Assembly (NCBI RefSeq): GCF_000332175.1
Contig: NZ_KB235914.1
Span: 4,185,793-4,249,792, forward strand
Length of the DNA: 64,000 bases
Direction of reading: 5' to 3'
DNA from: Pseudanabaena sp. PCC 6802
Lineage (GTDB): Bacteria > Cyanobacteriota > Cyanobacteriia > Pseudanabaenales > Pseudanabaenaceae
Below, one piece after another: positions 8,441 through 45,780 of the stretch. The notes beneath the pieces were generated by a model, which worked only from the letters and a program-made list of their open reading frames with translations, was not told the DNA's origin and made no database searches. Made by a program: the position numbers and the translations under genes. The first letter of the stretch is position 1, and every line of letters begins with the position of its first letter.

Positions 8441-8525
8441 GGAATTGATTGAGATTTCAGAGGTGGTTGGGTTTAACGTATTTGGTCAAAGCGTATGCAA
8501 AGCTGCGGAGCAGTAACGATCGAAC

Positions 8526-9386
8526 TTAAACTTGCATGACTATCTCCCCAGGCAATCTCGCCACTGGCCTTTGCCGCCTGTCAGCCGTAATATTATCGGC
8601 AGAAATTTGAGCAAAGGGATCGTTATTATAGCCCACACCGAGCAGGCATAACCCCTGTGGTGGTGCGGCATATTTGACATCGCAACGGCGTTGCTGCTGC
8701 CAGATGCGAGTGAACTCGCCCACGCTCAGGCGCGATCGCCCCACTTCCACCAGCATCCCTACCAACAGGCGCATCATGCCGTAGAGAAATCCACTTGCCT
8801 GCATTTCCAAATAGACAAAGTCGCCCTCGCGCCAGCAGATCGCCTCCTGCACGGTTAACCAGGCATGGGGACGCTTGGAACCAGCACGCTGAAAGGCCGC
8901 CAGGTGTTGTTTGCCTAACATCGGTGCGATCGCTGCCTGAATTAAATCTCGATCTAGCGGATCGAGATAATAATGCCAACTGTAATCGCGCACGAACAGG
9001 TTGGGCGTGGCATTAGTAAATATGGTGTAGCGATAGCGCCGCCAGGTGGCGGAAAATCTGGCGTGCCAGTCGGAGGAAACCGCGACAGAAGCCTTAATCA
9101 GAATATCGGCGGGCAAGTAAGCATTCAGTACCTTTGCCCAGCGCTCCGGGGGTACCGGGCTGTTGGTATCAAAATGAGCCACCTGTCCGGAGGCGTGCAC
9201 GCCCGTGTCCGTGCGTCCTGCCGCATGTAAGACCACTTTATGCTTGCAGATACCCGTGAGAATATCTTCAATGGTTTGCTGCACTGATATGCCGTTTGAC
9301 TGCCGCTGCCAACCATGAAAACGAGTGCCCAGGTACTGGATCGCGAGGGCAACTCGATGCATTGGGGAGTCTACAACAGCAACCAT
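8526..9386 (-). CDS. truA: tRNA pseudouridine(38-40) synthase
   Basis: A 286-residue TruA. Motifs YLGTRFHGWQRQ, the catalytic AAGRTDTGVHASGQVAHFD (Asp of RTD), and FLYGMMRLLVGMLVEVGR are all present. It converts uridines 38-40 of tRNA anticodon arms to pseudouridine. Its place between rplQ and rplM is the standard cyanobacterial operon order. Two possible starts exist (Met1 and Met9, MHRVALAIQYLG); the second gives a protein nearer to the E. coli N terminus. Confidence 0.95.
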   Translation of the reverse strand: MVAVVDSPMHRVALAIQYLGTRFHGWQRQSNGISVQQTIEDILTGICKHKVVLHAAGRTDTGVHASGQVAHFDTNSPVPPERWAKVLNAYLPADILIKASVAVSSDWHARFSATWRRYRYTIFTNATPNLFVRDYSWHYYLDPLDRDLIQAAIAPMLGKQHLAAFQRAGSKRPHAWLTVQEAICWREGDFVYLEMQASGFLYGMMRLLVGMLVEVGRSRLSVGEFTRIWQQQRRCDVKYAAPPQGLCLLGVGYNNDPFAQISADNITADRRQRPVARLPGEIVMQV

Positions 9387-9899: not shown

Positions 9900-10850
9900 T
9901 TAACCAGCTTTAGCTGCTTTTTCTTGGGGCAGGGTCAACCCAAGATGGCGCTTGAGCGCTTCAACGACTTCCTCCGCCGATTTTTGACCGAAATTCTTGA
10001 TTTCCAGCAAATCGTCCTGGGTGTAGTCCAGCAAGTCAGCAACCGTATTGATTTGGGCGCGTTTGAGACAGTTGTAAGCTCTTACCGAAAGCTGCAGCTC
10101 TTCGATATGAATTTGCTTGGTCTCATCGCCGTCATCTTCCAGAGTTTCCTTGGGTGGAGCCAGGGTGATTTCCTGGAGCGGTGTAAACATGCCAACCAGG
10201 ATGTCGGCTGCCTGAGACAGTGACTCTTGGGGGGTTAGGCTGCCATTGGTGGTAATTTCAATTACAAGGCGATCCTTTGACGTACCGCTGCCAATGCGAG
10301 CGTCCTCCACCATGTACTTAACCTTACGCACGGGCATGAAAATCGCGTCAATTTGCAAAAAGTCAATTGCCGAAACTTCTTCCTTCGTGCGCTCTACGGA
10401 GCGATAGCCCTTACCCGTTTCAACCTTAAATTCCATTTCCAGAGTTGCCCCCTCGCAGAGAGTAGCGACGTACTGATCGGGGTTGATTACCTCAACATCC
10501 GAGGGCAGATTAAAATCGCCAGCCGTAACCGTACAAGGGCCTCTGGCAGTGAGGCGACAGATTTGTGAATCGGAGCTGTACGATTTCAGTACAATCTCCT
10601 TCATATTGAGAATTAGATCCAGAACGTCTTCGCGTACGCCAGGAATTGTGGCAAATTCGTGGTTAACTCCGGCGATGCGCACGGCTGTTACGGCTGCGCC
10701 TTCTAGATTGGATAGCAATACTCGCCTGAGGGAATTACCAACGGTAGTACCTTGTCCTCTTTCTAGGGGCTCCAGTACAAACCTGCTGTACTGACTTTTG
10801 TTCTTTGGATCTTCATAAGACTCAATACACTCAACCGTGAAGTTTGCCAT
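9900..10850 (-). CDS. rpoA: DNA-directed RNA polymerase subunit alpha
   Basis: A 316-residue alpha subunit. The N-terminal domain has FVLEPLERGQGTTVGNSLRR (dimerisation and beta contact), and the C-terminal domain has IEELQLSVRAYNCLKRAQIN and a helix-hairpin-helix (DLLDYTQDDLLEIKNFGQKS) that binds UP elements and activators such as NtcA. It assembles with beta, gamma and beta' in cyanobacteria. It lies between rpsK and rplQ, the normal order. The ATG at 10850 gives MANFTVECIES. Confidence 0.97.
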   Translation of the reverse strand: MANFTVECIESYEDPKNKSQYSRFVLEPLERGQGTTVGNSLRRVLLSNLEGAAVTAVRIAGVNHEFATIPGVREDVLDLILNMKEIVLKSYSSDSQICRLTARGPCTVTAGDFNLPSDVEVINPDQYVATLCEGATLEMEFKVETGKGYRSVERTKEEVSAIDFLQIDAIFMPVRKVKYMVEDARIGSGTSKDRLVIEITTNGSLTPQESLSQAADILVGMFTPLQEITLAPPKETLEDDGDETKQIHIEELQLSVRAYNCLKRAQINTVADLLDYTQDDLLEIKNFGQKSAEEVVEALKRHLGLTLPQEKAAKAG

Positions 10851-10926
10851 TTTTGTACCGATGCGATCTCAGAAGGATTGGACTAGAGTGAAAAATTTGC
10901 AGATTGCAGACTGAAAGCAAGAAATA

Positions 10927-11322
10927 TTAAACGCGACGGCGCTTGGGCGGGCGGCAACCATTGTGCGGAATGGGAGTGATATCGCGAATGAGCGTAATTT
11001 CTAAACCTGCTGCCTGTAAGGCTCTGACCGCAGTTTCGCGACCCGATCCCGGCCCTGAGACCATCACTTCAACTTGACGCATTCCCTGTTCCATAGCCCG
11101 TCTGGCAGCACCTTCAGCTGCGGTTTGTGCCGCAAACGGAGTGCCTTTCTTGGCACCTTTAAAACCACTGGAACCAGCGGAAGCCCAAGAAATCACATCA
11201 CCGCCAGTATCGGCAATAGTAATAATTGTGTTGTTAAAAGTAGATTGCACGTAGGCGATTCCGGTCGGGACATTCCGCTTTTGCTTACGCACACCAGTGC
11301 GACGAGTTGCTGGGCGAGCCAT
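10927..11322 (-). CDS. rpsK: 30S ribosomal protein S11 (uS11)
   Basis: A 131-residue uS11 with [35 protein letters not shown] and the C-terminal [18 protein letters not shown]. It forms part of the 30S platform. It lies between rpsM and rpoA; the 152-nt gap to rpsM is long for this operon and contains a strong stem-loop (11403-11457). Confidence 0.97.
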
Positions 11323-11402
11323 AGTTAAATTTAGTTGGTTGCTTTAGTAATTTTGAATTATTGTTTAGATGGCGATTTTGTCGAGCGATCCAGTTGCCGA
11401 TC

Positions 11403-11457
11403 GCGTTGGTAATTTTTCTGCCACAGAAATTACTCTGGCTAGCTCGATTACCAACGC
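11403..11457 (-). repeat. Stem-loop between rpsM and rpsK
   Basis: Perfect 11-bp arms GCGTTGGTAAT (11403-11413) and ATTACCAACGC (11447-11457) enclose a second, imperfect hairpin (GTAATTTTTCTG / CAGAAATTAC). No T-run follows, so it is not a clear terminator. It could be an RNA-processing or autoregulatory structure, or a small repeat element. The structure is seen; the role is unknown. Confidence 0.6.
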
Positions 11458-11474
11458 TCGATATCGTAGAAACT

Positions 11475-11858
11475 CTATTTCTTAGAAGGAGCTTTCTTCT
11501 TACCAGCAACAGTGCGACGACCACCGCGTCGAGTACGTGCGTTAGTCCGGGTACGCTGACCGCGTACGGGCAAGCCAAGACGATGTCGCCTGCCCCTATA
11601 CGTACCGATATCTACAAGGCGCTTTATGTTTAAACCTTCAAGACGGCGCAGGTCTCCCTCGACCTGGTAATTTGTCTCAACCTCTTGGCGTAAGGCTGTT
11701 ACTTCCGCGTCACTAAGATCTTTTACTCTGGTGTCGGGGTTGACTTTTGTTTCTGCCAAAATCTTCTTAGCACTCGATAGTCCGATGCCAAAAATATAAG
11801 TCAAGCCAATCTCGACGCGCTTTTCACGAGGAAGGTCTACCCCTGCAATGCGAGCCAC
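11475..11858 (-). CDS. rpsM: 30S ribosomal protein S13 (uS13)
   Basis: A 127-residue uS13: [34 protein letters not shown], a helix-two-turns-helix, and the tail [19 protein letters not shown] that contacts tRNA. It is the first gene of the transcript here, preceded by a ~116-nt leader and a strong promoter. The rpmJ and infA genes that commonly precede rpsM are not found between this gene and the next one upstream. Confidence 0.97.
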
Positions 11859-38877: not shown

Positions 38878-39624
38878 TTAGTTAAGAATTTTGATATCCA
38901 GGAGATAACCCTTCCCACGTATAGTTTTAAGGAATTGCGGTTCGCCAGCATCTCGCTCAATTTTATCGCGTATTCCCCAGACCAAGGCACTAACTTCATT
39001 GGTAGAATGACCAAAGGCTTCTGTCCAGATCGCTGGAATCAGTTCCTCATAATCGCAAACAATTGGTTCGTCGTTATTAGCACGATTGCGCTTTGCCATA
39101 TGGTGAACGAGCAATCGCTCTTGGGGTCTGAGGCGGATCTCTTCGCGGGTTTGGCGAGTAGCTCGATATAGTCGTTGCTGGCTGAAGTGATATTCGATAA
39201 ACTCGGGTGTCTGAAACTTATCGATCAGGTCAGTCTCGTTGGGATCGCGAAAGGTCAACTGCCAGAAGATAGGCGTATCGTTTTCAGTCCACTTACCCAG
39301 AATCAGAATCACATTCCCATTTTTGAGGGGGACGCTGCCTTCGGAGCGGACATCGATTTCGGCTTTGCCATCTCCCTGGCGGAGGAAGGTGCCATTGGCG
39401 CTATCTGTATCCACCAGCCACCAGCGGCCAGAGCCGCGTTCGATCGCGGCATGTTGGCGGGAGACTTTTTTGTGCGGATCGGGTAGGACGATATCGTTAT
39501 CATCGCCGCGTCCGATCGTGATGCGAGGTTGGGCTTGTTGTCGCTCGATAAACTCTTTGAGTTCGATCGTGGATGTTTTACCTTCTGGATCTTGAATCTT
39601 TAGGAATGGATATTCGGGGTTCAT
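38878..39624 (-). CDS. FHA domain protein with C-terminal winged helix
   Basis: A 248-residue protein. The FHA domain (ITIGRGDDNDIVLPDPHKKV, then SRQH and DSANGTFL) binds phosphothreonine peptides. The C-terminal part (RLRPQERLLVHHMAKR, then a stretch ending TIRGKGYLLDIKIL) is an OmpR-like winged helix that probably binds DNA. An FHA module joined to a DNA-binding domain implies gene control by a Ser/Thr kinase; one is encoded at 44063-45214. Start at ATG 39624 (MNPEYPFLKI) rather than the 39693 start. Confidence 0.82.
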   Translation of the reverse strand: MNPEYPFLKIQDPEGKTSTIELKEFIERQQAQPRITIGRGDDNDIVLPDPHKKVSRQHAAIERGSGRWWLVDTDSANGTFLRQGDGKAEIDVRSEGSVPLKNGNVILILGKWTENDTPIFWQLTFRDPNETDLIDKFQTPEFIEYHFSQQRLYRATRQTREEIRLRPQERLLVHHMAKRNRANNDEPIVCDYEELIPAIWTEAFGHSTNEVSALVWGIRDKIERDAGEPQFLKTIRGKGYLLDIKILN

Positions 39625-39725
39625 AATTTTTCTCGATCGGTAGAAAATAGTATACTTTCCTTTAAATATTGGATCTAATCTAGAGATGGGCAAATGGCTG
39701 ATTGAAATTACCCTTCAAGAAATAA

Positions 39726-41561
39726 CTAACGACTGATTTGGCTTAGCAGACGAATTACTTCTCGATATCTAGATTGCTTACCCTGATCCTCATATAGAAT
39801 GGCAGCCTTCTGAAGATCGGCGATCGCTCCTTTTTTATCTCCTAAAGCAAGGCGATTAATCCCCCGATTCTTATAGGCAAGCGCACTCTTAGGATTCAGA
39901 TAAATTGCCCGATCGAAATCCGCGATCGCACCCTGCTTATCTTGCAACTCGGCGCGGGCGATCCCTCTATTAGTAAAAAAACTATCATTATTAGGATTGA
40001 GGCGAATCGCCTGGGTATAATCTGCGATCGCACCCTTTCTATCACCCAAATCAGAGCGGTTAATCCCCCTTCCATTGTAAGCAATATCAATATTGGGATT
40101 GAGGCGAATTGCCCGATCGTAATCTGCGATCGCAGATTTTGGATCTCCTAACTGAGTATGAGTTATTCCTCGGTTAACGTAGGCATCAGCATAGTTAGGA
40201 TTGAGGCGAATTGCCTGGTCAAAATCTGCGATCGCTTCCCTGTGAGATCCCAAATCAGAGCGACTATTCCCACGGTTCATGTAGGCTCGGTCAAAGTTAG
40301 GATCGAGGTGAATTGCCCGATCGTAATCCGCGATCGCTCCTTTTTTATCGCCTAGAGCAGAGCGGGAAAGTCCTCGATTATTATAGGCTATCTTCAAATT
40401 AGGATTGAGACGAATTGTCTGGGTATAATCTGCAATCGCTCCCTTTTTGTCACCCAAATCAGAGCGAACTTTTCCACGATTATAATAGGCGGGGGCAAAA
40501 TTGGGATTGAGACGGATTACCTCGGTATAGTCTGCGATCGCTTCCTTGGGCTCTCCTAAGCTAAAACGGATATTTCCTCGTCCAAAGTAAGCAGCAGCAA
40601 ATTTAGGGTTGAGACGAATTGCTCGGTTGTAATCTGCGATCGCTCCTTGCCGATCGCCTGCAATATGCTTATCAAGCCCTTGAAGAAAAGCATCATCTGC
40701 CTTCTGCTCAGGAGGTACTGTCGGAGCAGCAACGGTCTGAAATCCTAATCCTGGCTCTAACTGGGCAATGAAACGCATAGGGATATAGATAGGAATAGCT
40801 AAGTTCAATCCAAATTTCATCCCTATTTCGGGGTCAATTCCCTTCTGTTCAACTAAATCAGTCGCAACTTTGCTCTGTCCATGAATACCAATCAATTTTC
40901 CCTGCTCATCCAATACTGGCCCTCCACTCATCCCACTGAAAGTGTCATTGTAGTAGGCTAGAGCATATCCTTCTTTCAGTGGATATCCTGCATTAGCCGA
41001 AATCTGCCCATCACTAAAGCGATAGTTCTGCATAGTGCTTTCCTCAGATTGGAGGGGAAATCCTGCTACATAATTTGGTGTATCTGCCACTGCTTTTGCA
41101 GAATCGCCAATCTCCACCACGCGGTAGTCCTTGTCGCTAGTAAATTGCAAAATAGCGAGATCGATTTTGTCAGGGAAGCGTTTGACCGTTTTGTAATCGA
41201 TGGAATACTGTTTGCTATCGGGTGTGACAACCTTATACTTATCCTCAGTTGCTACCACATGCGCTGCTGTGAGGACAGTGTAGACATTACCTTGGCGTTT
41301 GATAATTACGCCAGAGCCAGGGGTCTGGCTGGTGATGCAGACCGTCACCGCTCTGGCAATTTCGCTCACCTTTTGGACTGTGGAGCCAGTATAGGCAATA
41401 GGAACACCATGAGAGCACGAGGTGCTACTACTAGCGCTTTCCTGGACTGCGGGTGCAGGTGCGTTCTGTTTCTCTGTTGGCTGAGGTGCGCAACCAACCA
41501 GAGTCATCGTTCCTGCTAAGACGGTTCCCAAAATTAATATTAATCGGTTTAAAGTGTTCAT
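39726..41561 (-). CDS. Trypsin-like serine protease with TPR repeats, lipoprotein
   Basis: A 611-residue lipoprotein. Signal peptide with lipobox LVGC (Cys24). A trypsin/HtrA-type protease domain follows with His101 (VLTAAHVV), Asp134 (KIDLAILQF) and Ser212 (FSGMSGGPVLDEQGKLIGIHG). The C-terminal half is about nine TPR units of 34 residues (AIADYDRAIRLNPN type). It should sit at the outer face of a membrane, degrading or sensing proteins, with TPRs for partner binding. It is a tandem paralogue of the next gene upstream. ATG 41561. Confidence 0.9.
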   Translation of the reverse strand: MNTLNRLILILGTVLAGTMTLVGCAPQPTEKQNAPAPAVQESASSSTSCSHGVPIAYTGSTVQKVSEIARAVTVCITSQTPGSGVIIKRQGNVYTVLTAAHVVATEDKYKVVTPDSKQYSIDYKTVKRFPDKIDLAILQFTSDKDYRVVEIGDSAKAVADTPNYVAGFPLQSEESTMQNYRFSDGQISANAGYPLKEGYALAYYNDTFSGMSGGPVLDEQGKLIGIHGQSKVATDLVEQKGIDPEIGMKFGLNLAIPIYIPMRFIAQLEPGLGFQTVAAPTVPPEQKADDAFLQGLDKHIAGDRQGAIADYNRAIRLNPKFAAAYFGRGNIRFSLGEPKEAIADYTEVIRLNPNFAPAYYNRGKVRSDLGDKKGAIADYTQTIRLNPNLKIAYNNRGLSRSALGDKKGAIADYDRAIHLDPNFDRAYMNRGNSRSDLGSHREAIADFDQAIRLNPNYADAYVNRGITHTQLGDPKSAIADYDRAIRLNPNIDIAYNGRGINRSDLGDRKGAIADYTQAIRLNPNNDSFFTNRGIARAELQDKQGAIADFDRAIYLNPKSALAYKNRGINRLALGDKKGAIADLQKAAILYEDQGKQSRYREVIRLLSQISR

Positions 41562-41608
41562 AATCTGATGCTGAGAGGAGTATGTAGTTTGTTTGGAATG
41601 GGAAAAAA

Positions 41609-43246
41609 CTAACGACTGATTTGATTTAGCAGACTAATTACTCGCTGATATCCATCTCGATCGCCCTGAGCTTGATATAGATCTGCCGCTTTCTGAAGAT
41701 CGGAGATCGCTCCCTTGTTATCTCCCAAAGCAGAACGGGCAAGTCCTCGGGTGCCGAAAGCCTGCGCATCATTAGGGTTGAGACGTATCGCTTGGCCATA
41801 ATCGGTGATCGCTCCCTTTTTGTCTCCTAAAGCAGAGCGGGCATTCCCTCGGTTATAGTAGGCATCGGCATCATTAGGATTGAGACGAATTGCCTGGTCA
41901 TAATCGGCGATCGCTCCCTTTTTATCACCTAAAGCAGAGCGGGCAACTCCTCGGTTATAGTAGGCGCTAGCATAGTTAGGATTGAGACGAATCGCTTGGT
42001 CATAATCTGCGATCGCTCCTTGTTTGTCTCCCAAATCAAAGCGGTCAATCCCTCGGTTATAGTAGGCGCTAGCATAGTTAGGATTAAGACGAATCGCTTG
42101 GTCATAATCTGCGATCGCTCCTTGTTTGTCTCCCAATGCAGAGCGGTTAATTCCTCGTTCATTGTAGACATCGGCATAGTTAGGATTAAGACGAATCGCT
42201 TGGTCATAATCTACGATCGCTTGAATTTTTTCTCTCACATCAAATTTATGTATAACAGAGCGGGCATACCCTCGCTTAAAGTAGGCGTCGGCATAGTTAG
42301 GATTAAGACGAATCGCTTGGTCATAATCTGCGATCGCTCCTTGCTGATCGCCTACGATTATCTTATCAAGTCCCTGGAGAAAGAAATCATCTGCAGTCTG
42401 TTGTGTCGACACTGCAACAGCAGCCACAGGCTGAAATTCCAGTACTGGTTCTACCTGTGTAATCAAACTCAAAAAGGTATAGATGGGAATAGCCAGGCTT
42501 AAGCCTCTTTTATCGCCAGTTTCTGGGTTAATTCCTTTGTTCTCAATCAAGTTATTCCTAACTTTACTCTGTCCGTGAATGCCAATCAGTTTTCCCTGCT
42601 CGTCTAATACTGGGCCTCCACTCATCCCACTAAAAGTGTCATTGTAGTATGCAAGAGCATATCCTTTTTCCAGTGGATGTACAGCATTGGCCGAAATTTG
42701 TCCGTCACTAAAGCGATAGTTCTGGATCGTACTTTCCGCAGACTGAAGTGGAAATCCAGCTACATAACTGGGCGTGCCTATCACGGCTTTTTGAGAATCG
42801 CCAATCTCAACCACGCGGTAGTCCTTGTCGCTGGTGAATTGCAAAATCGCGAGGTCAATTTTGTCAGGAAAGCGTTTGATTTTGCTGTACTCGACGGCAT
42901 ACTGGTTGCCATCAGGTGCAACGAGTTTGTACTTATCCTCAGTTGCTACCACATGCGCTGCTGTGAGAACTGTATAGACGTTACCATGACGTTTGATAAT
43001 TACGCCAGAACCAGGGGTTTGACTGGTGATGCAAACTGTGACTGCTCTGGCAATTTCGCTCACCTTTTGGACAGTGGAGCCAGTATAGGCGATAGGAGCG
43101 CCATGAGAGCAGGAAGATGGTATATCCACGCTAGCGCTCTCCTTCACAGAACTTGTCGTCGAAGAAGTAGGCTGTTGGGTAGTACAGCTATTCAGCGTAA
43201 TAGCTGAGACCAAAGTGAGGGCAAACAACAGTTTTGGGAATCTCAT
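41609..43246 (-). CDS. Trypsin-like serine protease with TPR repeats, lipoprotein (paralogue)
   Basis: A 545-residue paralogue of the downstream gene. Lipobox LNSC (Cys21), then the same protease core (VLTAAHVV, KIDLAILQF, GMSGGPVLDEQGKLIGIHG) with complete triad. About seven TPRs; one carries an inserted HKFDVREK segment. Neighbouring TPRs are almost identical in DNA (41860-42330), so the array has recently expanded or been homogenised. The 47-bp gap to the downstream copy suggests an operon. ATG 43246. Confidence 0.9.
   Translation of the reverse strand: MRFPKLLFALTLVSAITLNSCTTQQPTSSTTSSVKESASVDIPSSCSHGAPIAYTGSTVQKVSEIARAVTVCITSQTPGSGVIIKRHGNVYTVLTAAHVVATEDKYKLVAPDGNQYAVEYSKIKRFPDKIDLAILQFTSDKDYRVVEIGDSQKAVIGTPSYVAGFPLQSAESTIQNYRFSDGQISANAVHPLEKGYALAYYNDTFSGMSGGPVLDEQGKLIGIHGQSKVRNNLIENKGINPETGDKRGLSLAIPIYTFLSLITQVEPVLEFQPVAAVAVSTQQTADDFFLQGLDKIIVGDQQGAIADYDQAIRLNPNYADAYFKRGYARSVIHKFDVREKIQAIVDYDQAIRLNPNYADVYNERGINRSALGDKQGAIADYDQAIRLNPNYASAYYNRGIDRFDLGDKQGAIADYDQAIRLNPNYASAYYNRGVARSALGDKKGAIADYDQAIRLNPNDADAYYNRGNARSALGDKKGAITDYGQAIRLNPNDAQAFGTRGLARSALGDNKGAISDLQKAADLYQAQGDRDGYQRVISLLNQISR
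41860..42330. repeat. Near-identical 102-bp tandem repeats in a TPR array
   Basis: Four to five units of 102 bp, each encoding one TPR, share almost all bases (for example the block containing TTAGGATTAAGACGAATCGC recurs at each 102-bp step). This is more alike than the protein needs, so recent duplication or gene conversion is likely. Confidence 0.8.
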
Positions 43247-43388
43247 AATCTTTATCCATAGAATTTTTGCTTATTGCCCTTCTCTCACAAGGCGAGAAAA
43301 GGTTGAGACATAAGAGATAGGCACATTTCCGCATGAAATGATTCCACAAAATAGAGGAATCTATCTATTTGCAATTGAACAAATCCTG

Positions 43389-43452
43389 TAGGGGCAATCC
43401 CCTCGTGGTTGCCCCGATGCGTGGGGGGTAGGCACGGGGGCGCTACCCCTAC
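43389..43452. repeat. GTAGGGG/CCCCTAC inverted repeat
   Basis: Begins GTAGGGGCAATCCCC and ends GCTACCCCTAC; imperfect palindromic centre with GGTTGCCCC and GGGGGGTAGGCAC. Lies between the COP23 gene and the protease gene and resembles the element at 21961. Confidence 0.6.
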
Positions 43453-43504
43453 AAGAATTGCATCGGTCATTTAAATATCGTCAAAAAGAACCAAAATCAT
43501 ATCC

Positions 43505-44041
43505 TTACCAGAGTGGCTTCGGCGATCGCCCCGAAGAGTCAACTCCTAGAAATTTATCAACATCTAGATAAGGTCGTTTCCCAGTCTCTGTCAAAGTTTC
43601 GTTGCTGCCATGCCGAATCGCAATTAGCCTTTGCAAAGTCACCTGCGGGTTAAATCCAGGTTTGACCGTGAATAATAAGTCCGTGCAGTCGCCACCTTCG
43701 CGGCTAGCAGTACAGATCGCATTCTCACCATTGATCTGTCCCGTGGTGATATATTTCAAAGAGCCAGATTGATAAAAGGTTTGAAATCTACCAGACACCT
43801 CCGCACAGCGTTTCTCCGGCGACCAACCTGCCGCATCAAAGCTATTAGATACCCATTTAATGATAGGAATATCAGAATTTTTTGTCTTTGCCACCGTAGT
43901 GGGAACTCCGTCAACCTGAGCGCAAACAAAGCTAGCCTCTTTAGCCTGTACCGAAGAGAAGTTAGAGCAACCGGAGATATTGCCAACCAAAATCGCCACG
44001 ACTGGAACCATCAGAATTATTGAAAACCTTTGATTTAACAT
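43505..44041 (-). CDS. COP23 domain lipoprotein
   Basis: A 178-residue COP23-domain protein. N-terminal signal with lipobox ISGC (Cys25). Conserved cysteines lie in FVCAQVDGVPTTVA, SPEKRCAEVSGRFQTFY, INGENAICTA and GGDCTDLLFTV, likely forming disulfides outside the cytoplasm. The name comes from a circadian-oscillating membrane protein of a cyanobacterium; the function is unknown. It lies between the Ser/Thr kinase and the TPR proteases, all in one direction, so it is probably part of their module. Confidence 0.88.
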   Translation of the reverse strand: MLNQRFSIILMVPVVAILVGNISGCSNFSSVQAKEASFVCAQVDGVPTTVAKTKNSDIPIIKWVSNSFDAAGWSPEKRCAEVSGRFQTFYQSGSLKYITTGQINGENAICTASREGGDCTDLLFTVKPGFNPQVTLQRLIAIRHGSNETLTETGKRPYLDVDKFLGVDSSGRSPKPLW

Positions 44042-44062
44042 AAACCACCTACAAACTTTAGT

Positions 44063-45214
44063 TCACTTTGATTTATCAAATAGATCGGTATTCTTGGGAC
44101 AGTTGTTGAGCAACCGACATACCTCAGAATTACGAGGCAACCAAATCCCCACAATTGTGCCAAAGATGGCAATGCAGACAATACCAACCAGACCGCGCCA
44201 GACCAACGCCCTAATTTTCAACTGGTTTGGGTTCAATTGATACCCACTATTGTTAGTCTTGTTGTTAGAAAGACCCTCAGTCGAGCCGCCACCCTGCTCC
44301 ATTCCCTTTAGATCTTTCAAAACTTCAGTTGCACTCTGATAGCGGTCTTGCGGCTGCTCCCGCAATAGTTTGCTTAAAATCCGGATGAATGGATCGCTGA
44401 GCGGAACCGGAGTATCCCACCTCCAGTTTTTTGTTCCGTTATTAAACAATTCCCATCGATCCTTGCCCGTGAGTAAATTTAGGGCAGACAAAGCTAGGGA
44501 ATATAAGTCACTGCTAGACGAGCATTCTCCGGTGAGCATTTGTTCCGGTGCCGAAAATGCGTGTTTGCCGACAGTTGTTCCCCAGATCTTCCTGGCTTCG
44601 GGTGAAATATCCACACCAGCTTCAATTACCTTCGCAACACCAAAATCAATCAACATTGATAGAGGTTCATTTTGCCGATCGCTCCGATCCCCAGATTCCT
44701 GGATCGAAGGTTGCATAATGTTATCCGGGGAAATATCGCGATGAATTACCCCTTGTGCGTGTATATACGCTAACACTGGTAACAGATCCTTCAACCACTG
44801 GATCGCCTCAATTTCTGAGAAGGTTTGCCCTCTTTGCAGGCGTTGCCGCAGAATATCGGCATAGGTAAGCCCCTCAATATAGTCCTGTACCAGAAACCAA
44901 CGATTATCCTGCAAGAACCAGCCATGGAACTTGGGGATCTGGGGATGGCTGAGCCGATCCAAGGTTTTAGCCTCTCGTTCAAATAGTTCCAACGCCTTCG
45001 GTATAGCAGCTTCCGACACGTTCCGCGGACAAAACTCTTTAACCACACAATTGCGATCGAAGCGCTTGTTATCCACGGCAAGATAGGTACGCCCTAATCC
45101 ACCCTGCCCAAGCACTTTTACAATTTGATAGCGACTATCCAACACTGTATCAATTGGTACAGGCTTCTCAAAATCTAAAAATGGGTCTGAAGACGGGTCT
45201 GATGTAGGGTACAT
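44063..45214 (-). CDS. Membrane-bound serine/threonine protein kinase
   Basis: A Hanks-type kinase of about 383 residues. Residue numbers are for the longest frame from 45271: Gly loop GQGGLG (55-60), Lys78 (VVKEF), Glu100, HRDISPDN (His177, Asp179, Asn184) and DFG (Asp209), all present. A C-terminal transmembrane helix (WRGLVGIVCIAIFGTIVGIWL) anchors it with a short outer tail. It begins a same-strand series with COP23 and two TPR proteases. Start is uncertain: ATG 45214 (MYPTSDPSSDPF) is preferred over 45271. Confidence 0.92.
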   Translation of the reverse strand: MYPTSDPSSDPFLDFEKPVPIDTVLDSRYQIVKVLGQGGLGRTYLAVDNKRFDRNCVVKEFCPRNVSEAAIPKALELFEREAKTLDRLSHPQIPKFHGWFLQDNRWFLVQDYIEGLTYADILRQRLQRGQTFSEIEAIQWLKDLLPVLAYIHAQGVIHRDISPDNIMQPSIQESGDRSDRQNEPLSMLIDFGVAKVIEAGVDISPEARKIWGTTVGKHAFSAPEQMLTGECSSSSDLYSLALSALNLLTGKDRWELFNNGTKNWRWDTPVPLSDPFIRILSKLLREQPQDRYQSATEVLKDLKGMEQGGGSTEGLSNNKTNNSGYQLNPNQLKIRALVWRGLVGIVCIAIFGTIVGIWLPRNSEVCRLLNNCPKNTDLFDKSK

Positions 45215-45780
45215 GACCGTTAACGAAGGGGAGAATGCCAAAATGGTATCAAGAACAATCATGTCAGTCAAACTCCGGCAACATTAATCAATAGTCTCGT
45301 AACTAACCTGAAACATAAATACATCTTGCGGCTAAGCGAAATATATTCAACTACATTCATAGTAGGGGAGAAATATCTTGGATAAACCAGTCAAAGATTT
45401 AAATTAGATCTAAACTAGATATAATTTGGCTTCAAACAGCCTAATACCAATTCTTCAAAATTGAACTACAGATCGATCTATGTACGGGCGAACGGCCGTT
45501 CGCCCCTCCAGTAATCTGTAGGAATTGGTATAATTTGGGTGCATCTCATATTTGCAGATTAATAATCCCATCCATCCTGCCCTTCTTGAGAGGCAACGCC
45601 CCCACCCCACTACTCTTTCCGATCAGAGCGATCGCCGCTTTGTGGTCAATCCTACCGTGTGCCCCCGATACTTGTCACATGCCATGCAACAGACGACAGA
45701 TATTGAGATCGCGAGCAAATTGGATGCGACTTGAGTTTGAGAGTGTCATAGAGATGGGATAGATATGTGCAACGATCGGT
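45215..45780. other. Intergenic region with MITE remnants
   Basis: The kinase frame is open up to 45271; beyond that lie a family C element (45447-45528) and a family B remnant without terminal repeats (about 45575-45637, GCCCTTCTTGAGAGGCAACGCC...ACTCTTTCCGATC). No gene was recognised. Confidence 0.6.
45447..45528. repeat. Family C MITE-like repeat, copy 2
   Basis: 82 bp from CCAATTCTTCAAAATTGAAC to GTAGGAATTGG, with TA at 45445-45446 and 45529-45530. Near-identical to 36975-37068 apart from a 12-bp shorter right side. Confidence 0.85.

Follow-up and report, generated by a model that had tools for sequence, protein, structure and literature searches.

Five adjacent genes of the cyanobacterium Pseudanabaena sp. 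PCC 6802 were found to bring together two gene pairings that recur elsewhere. One links proteins of the circadian oscillating protein family COP23 to trypsin-like proteases, and the other links proteins carrying a forkhead-associated (FHA) domain and an OmpR-type winged helix to Ser/Thr kinases. Judged from gene order and protein sequence, the first partnership is highly probable and the second probable. The pairings are supported by gene neighbourhoods; from them we infer, tentatively and at somewhat less than an even chance, that all four families act in one pathway, an operon in which two recurrent modules would together carry a Ser/Thr phosphosignal from the envelope to DNA. The genes lie in a window of 64,000 nucleotides, which is the whole stretch of DNA analysed here (contig NZ_KB235914.1, positions 4,185,793 to 4,249,792, assembly GCF_000332175.1). 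It belongs to contig C5 of a genome of 5.62 Mb in six contigs.

Gene order and domain content

According to the list of open reading frames (ORFs), all five genes are encoded on the minus strand and together span window positions 45271 to 38878. The features considered were the following.

44063-45271, minus strand: Hanks-type Ser/Thr kinase, 402 amino acids from a TTG start (PF00069, E=1.2e-34; catalytic motifs)
44147-44221, minus strand: predicted C-terminal transmembrane helix of the kinase, residues ~351-375 (hydropathy scan)
44096-44119, minus strand: motif CRLLNNCP in the post-membrane tail of the kinase (pattern C-x2-[LF]-N-[NH]-C)
43505-44041, minus strand: COP23 protein, 178 amino acids, lipobox ISGC (PF14218, E=3e-39; four conserved cysteines)
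43380-43460, no strand assigned: imperfect hairpin with 36-nt arms in the gap between the COP23 and protease genes (repeat search)
41609-43246, minus strand: trypsin-like protease with C-terminal tetratricopeptide repeats (TPRs), copy 1, 545 amino acids (PF13365, E=3e-24; TAAHV, DLAI and GMSGG boxes)
39726-41561, minus strand: trypsin-like protease with C-terminal TPRs, copy 2, 611 amino acids, lipobox LVGC (PF13365, E=6.6e-24; catalytic boxes)
38878-39693, minus strand: protein with FHA and OmpR-type winged-helix domains, 271 amino acids from a TTG start (PF00498, PF00486; fold model)
39301-39522, minus strand: FHA domain with the canonical phospho-threonine residues GR, SRxH and NG (Pfam; EmbR FHA fold match)
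38899-39144, minus strand: predicted OmpR/PhoB-type winged-helix DNA-binding domain (PF00486, E=8.2e-10; CovR fold match)

Coordinates, strand and Pfam profiles agreed with the original prediction of a kinase, a COP23 protein, two protease-TPR proteins and an FHA-DNA-binding protein lying in one direction, each of the five gene labels being backed by the Pfam search. Read from the kinase to the FHA gene, the intergenic gaps measured 21, 258, 47 and 32 bp, and the genes putatively form a single transcript. Both the kinase ORF and the FHA ORF begin at a TTG codon; from a reading of the sequence, ATG is the more probable start, at 45214 or 45262 for the kinase and at 39624 for the FHA protein, which would then count 248 amino acids.

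The 258-bp gap contains a long imperfect GC-rich hairpin (43380-43460), which was not among the terminator-like sites of a terminator scan and whose 29-base core occurs in a single copy within the window. It resembles what we take to be a dispersed cyanobacterial intergenic repeat, and looks like such a repeat rather than a terminator. A search of the window for repeats that might serve as shared binding sites yielded nothing useful.

COP23 and the trypsin-TPR proteases

The partnership of COP23 with trypsin-like proteases was assessed in 88 loci containing 97 COP23 genes, hand-picked by COP23 score or kinship and not by their neighbours. They originated from 31 stretches of relatives or of the same genome, from 59 high-scoring places among the matches listed, and from the window. 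The best scores were taken first and some were skipped, so that the statistics cover this sample. Three loci (L203, L204 and L219) in which the ORF caller returned no COP23 were left out of the counts, and in L311 an annotated COP23 was overlooked by ORF picking.

Among 80 COP23 genes of up to 245 amino acids, 59 were followed on their own strand by a trypsin-like gene no more than three genes away, 52 of them immediately; among longer ones (>245 amino acids) this held for four of 17. Ten control regions, five from the same genome and five from five others, were examined with the same profiles and contained no trypsin-like gene and one kinase among 169 genes. Plasmids displayed the same association: all eight records with a COP23 gene (E 1e-8) had an adjoining protease gene, which was located upstream in L308 and on both sides in L309 and Stanieria. 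In two genomes the two partners were fused into single trypsin-COP23 proteins (L231, 5275-6498; L232, 7385-8683). Neighbourhoods, plasmid loci and fusions together bore out the earlier proposal that COP23 and the proteases form an arm outside the cytoplasm. Elsewhere (L092:4474-11470), two trypsin-like genes come after a tandem of three COP23 genes, and a kinase gene and an FHA gene lie upstream of this array.

The product of 43505-44041 is a clear member of the COP23 family PF14218, with 134.4 bits against a gathering score of 27 bits. Its four cysteines were conserved in 86-87 of 87 short relatives in the alignment, which would fit an exported, disulfide-bonded domain. Comparison of COP23 with solved structures gave no useful match (best E=0.16), and a single-sequence fold prediction reached a mean predicted local distance difference test (pLDDT) of 41.5 and was not used.

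The proteases are encoded by tandemly duplicated genes and share 74 % identity over residues 7-329. By sequence, both belong to the Trypsin_2 group, with His, Asp and Ser boxes in the protease domain followed by the TPRs. A crude regular expression for the His and Ser boxes was tried as a family-wide activity test and rejected, both boxes being matched in 20 of 102 proteins; intact catalytic boxes are claimed for the two window copies only. COP23 and both proteases begin with what appear by eye to be export-type leaders. All three had been called lipoproteins, which held for COP23 and for protease 2, whose lipoboxes ISGC and LVGC are canonical by eye, but not for protease 1, whose LNSC is not canonical. 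Since a lipobox-like motif was present in only seven of the 87 COP23 proteins aligned, lipid anchoring is no general trait of the COP23 family.

The FHA-winged-helix protein and its kinase neighbours

The product of 38878-39693 displayed an FHA domain (PF00498, E=4.3e-16) followed by a Trans_reg_C domain, whose 39.1 bits against a cut-off of 26.2 place it, on profile evidence, among OmpR/PhoB winged helices. The FHA fold together with the GR, SxxH and NG residues predicts phospho-threonine binding, the motif being defined as in the sections of PMC1262709 drawn on here. A fold model built from four sequences (mean pLDDT 77.8) comprised two domains. The first matched FHA domains, including that of EmbR (2fez; Z 13.2, root mean square deviation (rmsd) 2.0, 99 residues); the second matched DNA-binding domains of the OmpR family, namely those of CovR (3rjp; Z 12.9, rmsd 2.5, 94 residues) and YycF (2d1v; Z 12.4, rmsd 1.8, 93 residues). 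The modelled fold thus supports the winged helix as a probable DNA-binding domain.

The occurrence of such proteins is sporadic. With the window's genome included, they were detected in nine of 388 genomes of the class with an alignment model (E <=1e-15) and in seven of 388 with a single-protein query (E <=1e-12); a scan of named genomes retrieved them in only three (L097-L099) of the 80 loci kept from 96 relatives. In all, the loci of 17 FHA-winged-helix proteins were collected and reduced, by merging close relatives, to the window and ten other lineages. L049 and L097 represent a single contig, L057 is closely related to L099, the two Stanieria plasmids were counted as one lineage, and the same-genus pairs G056/G201 and G230/G096 were joined by locus.

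A kinase was present within four genes of the FHA-winged-helix gene in nine of these ten lineages, the exception being L060. It was directly adjacent in six of the ten (upstream in L061 and L205, downstream in the rest) and on the strand of the FHA gene in eight of the nine, the opposite strand being used in Stanieria. With kinase densities assumed to be 0.75 to 1.2 %, nine in ten would arise by chance with a probability of 7.5e-11 to 4e-9; per-genome kinase counts are lower bounds and higher densities were therefore assumed in the probability estimates. Only one of 12 other FHA genes of the same genome had a kinase within four genes (Fisher p=2.9e-4), which upheld the proposal that kinase and FHA protein are partners. 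These 12 control genes were defined by Pfam; profile labels gave 11 and missed one in L282, where no kinase was found.

A PP2C phosphatase gene accompanied the pair in two cases: FHA-winged-helix, PP2C and kinase genes formed a row in L065:1132-3735, from a genome of the window organism's own family, and PP2C lay upstream of the FHA gene in L058. In the kinase tree, which carries a long-branch warning, 11 kinases of distant FHA loci from six genomes (G230, G096, G011, G100, G056 and G201) formed one clade (100/99), several of them originating from kinase rows in a single locus.

Two further arrangements were observed. Another FHA gene of the window's genome (L279; FHA domain 8516-8704) directly precedes a same-strand kinase gene (10122-11693). 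The kinase next to the FHA-winged-helix gene of Calothrix (L098:4463-6691) carries a long C-terminal part resembling, by eye, a TRAP-type solute-binding protein.

The kinase and its link with COP23

The kinase sequence has intact catalytic motifs (glycine loop, VVKEF, DFG, APE and HRDISPDN) and is assigned to the Hanks type by its Pkinase domain, glycine loop, catalytic Lys, HRD and DFG. Hydropathy predicts one C-terminal membrane helix with a short tail beyond it, in agreement with the membrane kinase originally proposed; with this helix and tail only, the kinase itself shows no visible sensor domain. The protein belongs to a large cyanobacterial family, detected in 260 of 388 genomes of the class at E 1e-60, and most of its best relatives from 29 other loci display long C-terminal regions. 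The tail pattern was encountered in three of 69 collected kinases (window, L238 and L211), all in COP23-trypsin loci, the kinase of L211 being five genes from its COP23. HRDISPDN was considered as a marker of a COP23-linked kinase subfamily and rejected, as it is common in the wider family.

Of 60 COP23-trypsin loci, 11 had a kinase no more than four genes away (P 1e-5 to 4e-3), and in six of 56 a kinase was the immediate upstream neighbour (P 1e-6 to 6e-5). Of these six, the ones in the window, L068 and L238 are on the same strand and those in L192, L230 and L234 are divergent. Without the window, and with the related loci L230 and L234 merged, four of 54 remained (P 3e-4 to 4e-3). The supposed kinase of L217 looks like an ABC1-type protein.

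Several loci resembled the window in gene order. L238 displayed kinase, COP23, trypsin and trypsin-TPR genes in the same succession, and a second kinase-COP23-trypsin row was found in the same genome (L068:6372-10302, contig C1) with a kinase from another part of the tree. Single-strand rows were also encountered on two plasmids: kinase, COP23 and trypsin on p3 of Nostoc sphaeroides (L313), and kinase, a small ORF, COP23 and two proteases on p1 of Microcystis aeruginosa NIES-2481 (L312). At 370 and 369 amino acids, the two plasmid kinases are short and, like the window kinase of 402 amino acids, have one C-terminal helix and a short tail.

Recurrence of the full set

A search of a plasmid collection with the FHA protein retrieved two full-length relatives with 49 % identity, from Stanieria cyanosphaera PCC 7437 and Stanieria sp. 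NIES-3757. On both plasmids, 269 bp separate the FHA gene from a divergently oriented row of protease, COP23 and protease-TPR genes; in NIES-3757 the first protease gene is split by transposase genes. The kinase is located on the other side and on the opposite strand, third from the FHA gene. The genes intervening between FHA gene and kinase are of the TnpB and Uma2 families (L296:9803-11672), with the same layout in L297. In the tree, the Stanieria FHA proteins were sister to that of the window with moderate support (85/75); by identity, the window protein was closest to L049, whose contig is too short to tell whether COP23 or trypsin genes are present.

Neighbourhood conservation, on which the original association was to be judged, was thus partial: the pairs recur and the full set is found in Stanieria, but in no other FHA-winged-helix locus examined. 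FHA genes lay within five genes of five of 63 COP23-trypsin anchors, two of them in one locus and one being the window, and no general link between FHA and COP23 is claimed. The idea that the five genes represent one conserved operon was rejected, as pairs recur and the quartet is rare.

Comparison with known systems

The inner part of the locus would work much like PknH-EmbR of Mycobacterium tuberculosis, in which a Hanks kinase acts through an FHA protein with an OmpR-type DNA-binding domain (EmbR is described in the consulted portions of PMC4601284 and PMC6213207). EmbR/SARP proteins are arranged, according to the same portion of PMC4601284, as an N-terminal OmpR-type domain, BTAD and a C-terminal FHA domain. 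The window protein begins with the FHA domain, ends with the winged helix and lacks a BTAD match in Pfam, and was for this reversed order and missing match not assigned to the EmbR/SARP family. COP23 or protease genes are not mentioned for PknH-EmbR in the passages of PMC4601284 and PMC6213207 used. FHA genes of M. tuberculosis cluster with kinase and phosphatase genes (PMC1262709, in the sections cited above), as do those of L065 and L058. Our case differs in that the FHA protein itself would bind DNA and in that, in the window, COP23 and protease genes separate the kinase from the FHA gene.

The window proteases share the Trypsin_2 domain and catalytic boxes with HtrA-type enzymes. They differ from HtrA by the absence of a PDZ match in Pfam, by their C-terminal TPRs and by their COP23 neighbour; NCBIfam HtrA models scored far under their cut-offs on them. 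COP23 has been described as a membrane protein with a strong day-night change of its transcript and a possible role in membrane function, and a partnership with a trypsin-like protease or a kinase is unmentioned in the extracts of that account at hand (PMC6315102). The unit had been thought undescribed; in line with this, no description of either module was found in the open-licence literature searched, as far as the accessible text extends, including PMC1262709, PMC2176072, PMC10470591 and PMC6315102.

Proposed pathway and alternatives

In the pathway that we tentatively favour, COP23 and the two trypsin-TPR proteins would be exported and act together as an outer module. COP23 would most likely be the protease's regulator, adaptor or substrate; gene order and fusions support the partnership itself. 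The kinase would be anchored by its C-terminal helix, and as it has only a short tail outside, the COP23/protease complex would probably supply its input, for instance by binding to the tail or clipping it. In the inner module, the kinase would autophosphorylate on threonine, the FHA domain would dock on the kinase, and phosphorylation or docking would alter DNA binding by the OmpR-type winged helix. These steps are suggested by the domain structure, the kinase neighbourhood and EmbR, whose precedent makes docking and altered DNA binding plausible. Likely targets would be the operon itself and other envelope genes; direct control by the FHA protein would fit the divergent position of the Stanieria FHA gene across 269 bp from the protease-COP23-protease row. 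A more specific version, in which a sensor-less membrane kinase is signalled by an exported COP23-trypsin complex and relays via phospho-threonine to an FHA-OmpR transcription factor as a previously unrecognised receptor system, is possible and appears doubtful to us.

It is also a serious possibility that two independent modules have become neighbours by chance, namely a kinase-COP23-protease envelope unit and an FHA-winged-helix regulator paired with another kinase of the genome, both belonging to a mobile accessory pool. The modules are far oftener apart than together, and several observations weigh against a single pathway. The full quartet was present in only two lineages, the window and Stanieria. 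Assuming one to seven COP23 genes per 5000, the chance of one COP23 within four genes of an FHA gene among ten lineages is ~2-11 %, so that the Stanieria recurrence alone is suggestive and not proof. Identity to the window's proteins is no more than 27-33 % for the kinase, COP23 and proteases of Stanieria; the set therefore seems to have been re-assembled from family members and not inherited intact. Calothrix MO_167.B12 (L098), whose FHA protein belongs to the same clade, displayed a kinase and neither COP23 nor trypsin in 12 kb (8 kb downstream and 3.5 kb upstream of the FHA gene), and neither was found in the more distant FHA-winged-helix loci examined.

Points of the same kind concern the kinase. 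Kinases beside the window's FHA clade scatter over the kinase tree and do not form one clade, and the window kinase falls outside the clade that accompanies the distant FHA-winged-helix proteins. Its 29 best other loci contained no COP23 or trypsin gene within 1.5-kb flanks, and the tail motif was absent from both plasmid kinases beside COP23 (Nostoc sphaeroides p3 and Microcystis NIES-2481 p1). COP23 loci without trypsin displayed a kinase within four genes equally often (seven of 28, p=0.57), and the kinase link is accordingly with COP23 rather than with the COP23-trypsin pair. Promoter and terminator scans of the window returned no more sites than shuffled sequences and gave no operon signal.

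A chance meeting of separate modules would further agree with the presence of at least 34 kinases in this genome, with the sporadic distribution of FHA-winged-helix proteins (nine of 388) and with mobility, Stanieria carrying both modules on plasmids and COP23-trypsin being found on six further ones. Two observations speak for the joint pathway instead. A kinase was kept nearby in nine of ten other FHA-winged-helix lineages, hence the nearby kinase is the expected partner, and the probable sister lineage of the window also has COP23 and trypsin beside its FHA gene.

A signal running from inside to outside seems unlikely. COP23 and the proteases would then perform extracytoplasmic quality control or protein processing and the kinase would control their expression or export, as could be read from the lack of a kinase within four genes in 49 of 60 COP23-trypsin loci (itself a further point against the pathway), from the divergence of the Stanieria FHA gene from its protease-COP23 row and from the intact catalytic boxes of the window proteases. 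Against it, the short kinases display no visible sensor domain, for which external input through partner proteins would be the simplest source of signal.

Finally, a defence or conflict system is very improbable: kinase and trypsin-like proteases resemble parts of anti-phage or ternary conflict systems, in which trypsin-like peptidases recur (PMC7159879, in the part consulted; COP23 is absent from its main text), modules can be plasmid-borne, and PADLOC profiles matched the kinase (PD-T4-6, E=3e-75) and the proteases (LmuA, E=9.9e-18 and 2.7e-17), but these matches probably reflect generic kinase and trypsin domains, COP23 and the FHA protein had no PADLOC match at E 1e-5, COP23 and the proteases begin with export-type leaders, and Pfam identified no effector or NTPase of such systems among the five genes.

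Implications

The frequent trypsin-like partner offers a testable lead for COP23, for which the extracts of PMC6315102 give no mechanism, as protease regulator, adaptor or substrate. Cyanobacteria have many Ser/Thr kinases (at least 34 in this genome) of which few outputs are known to us, and pairs of FHA-winged-helix protein and kinase would provide a simple route from these kinases to transcription in cyanobacteria. If the receptor system outlined above is real, it would represent a Ser/Thr analogue of two-component systems in which sensing is outsourced, and COP23 would acquire a molecular role.

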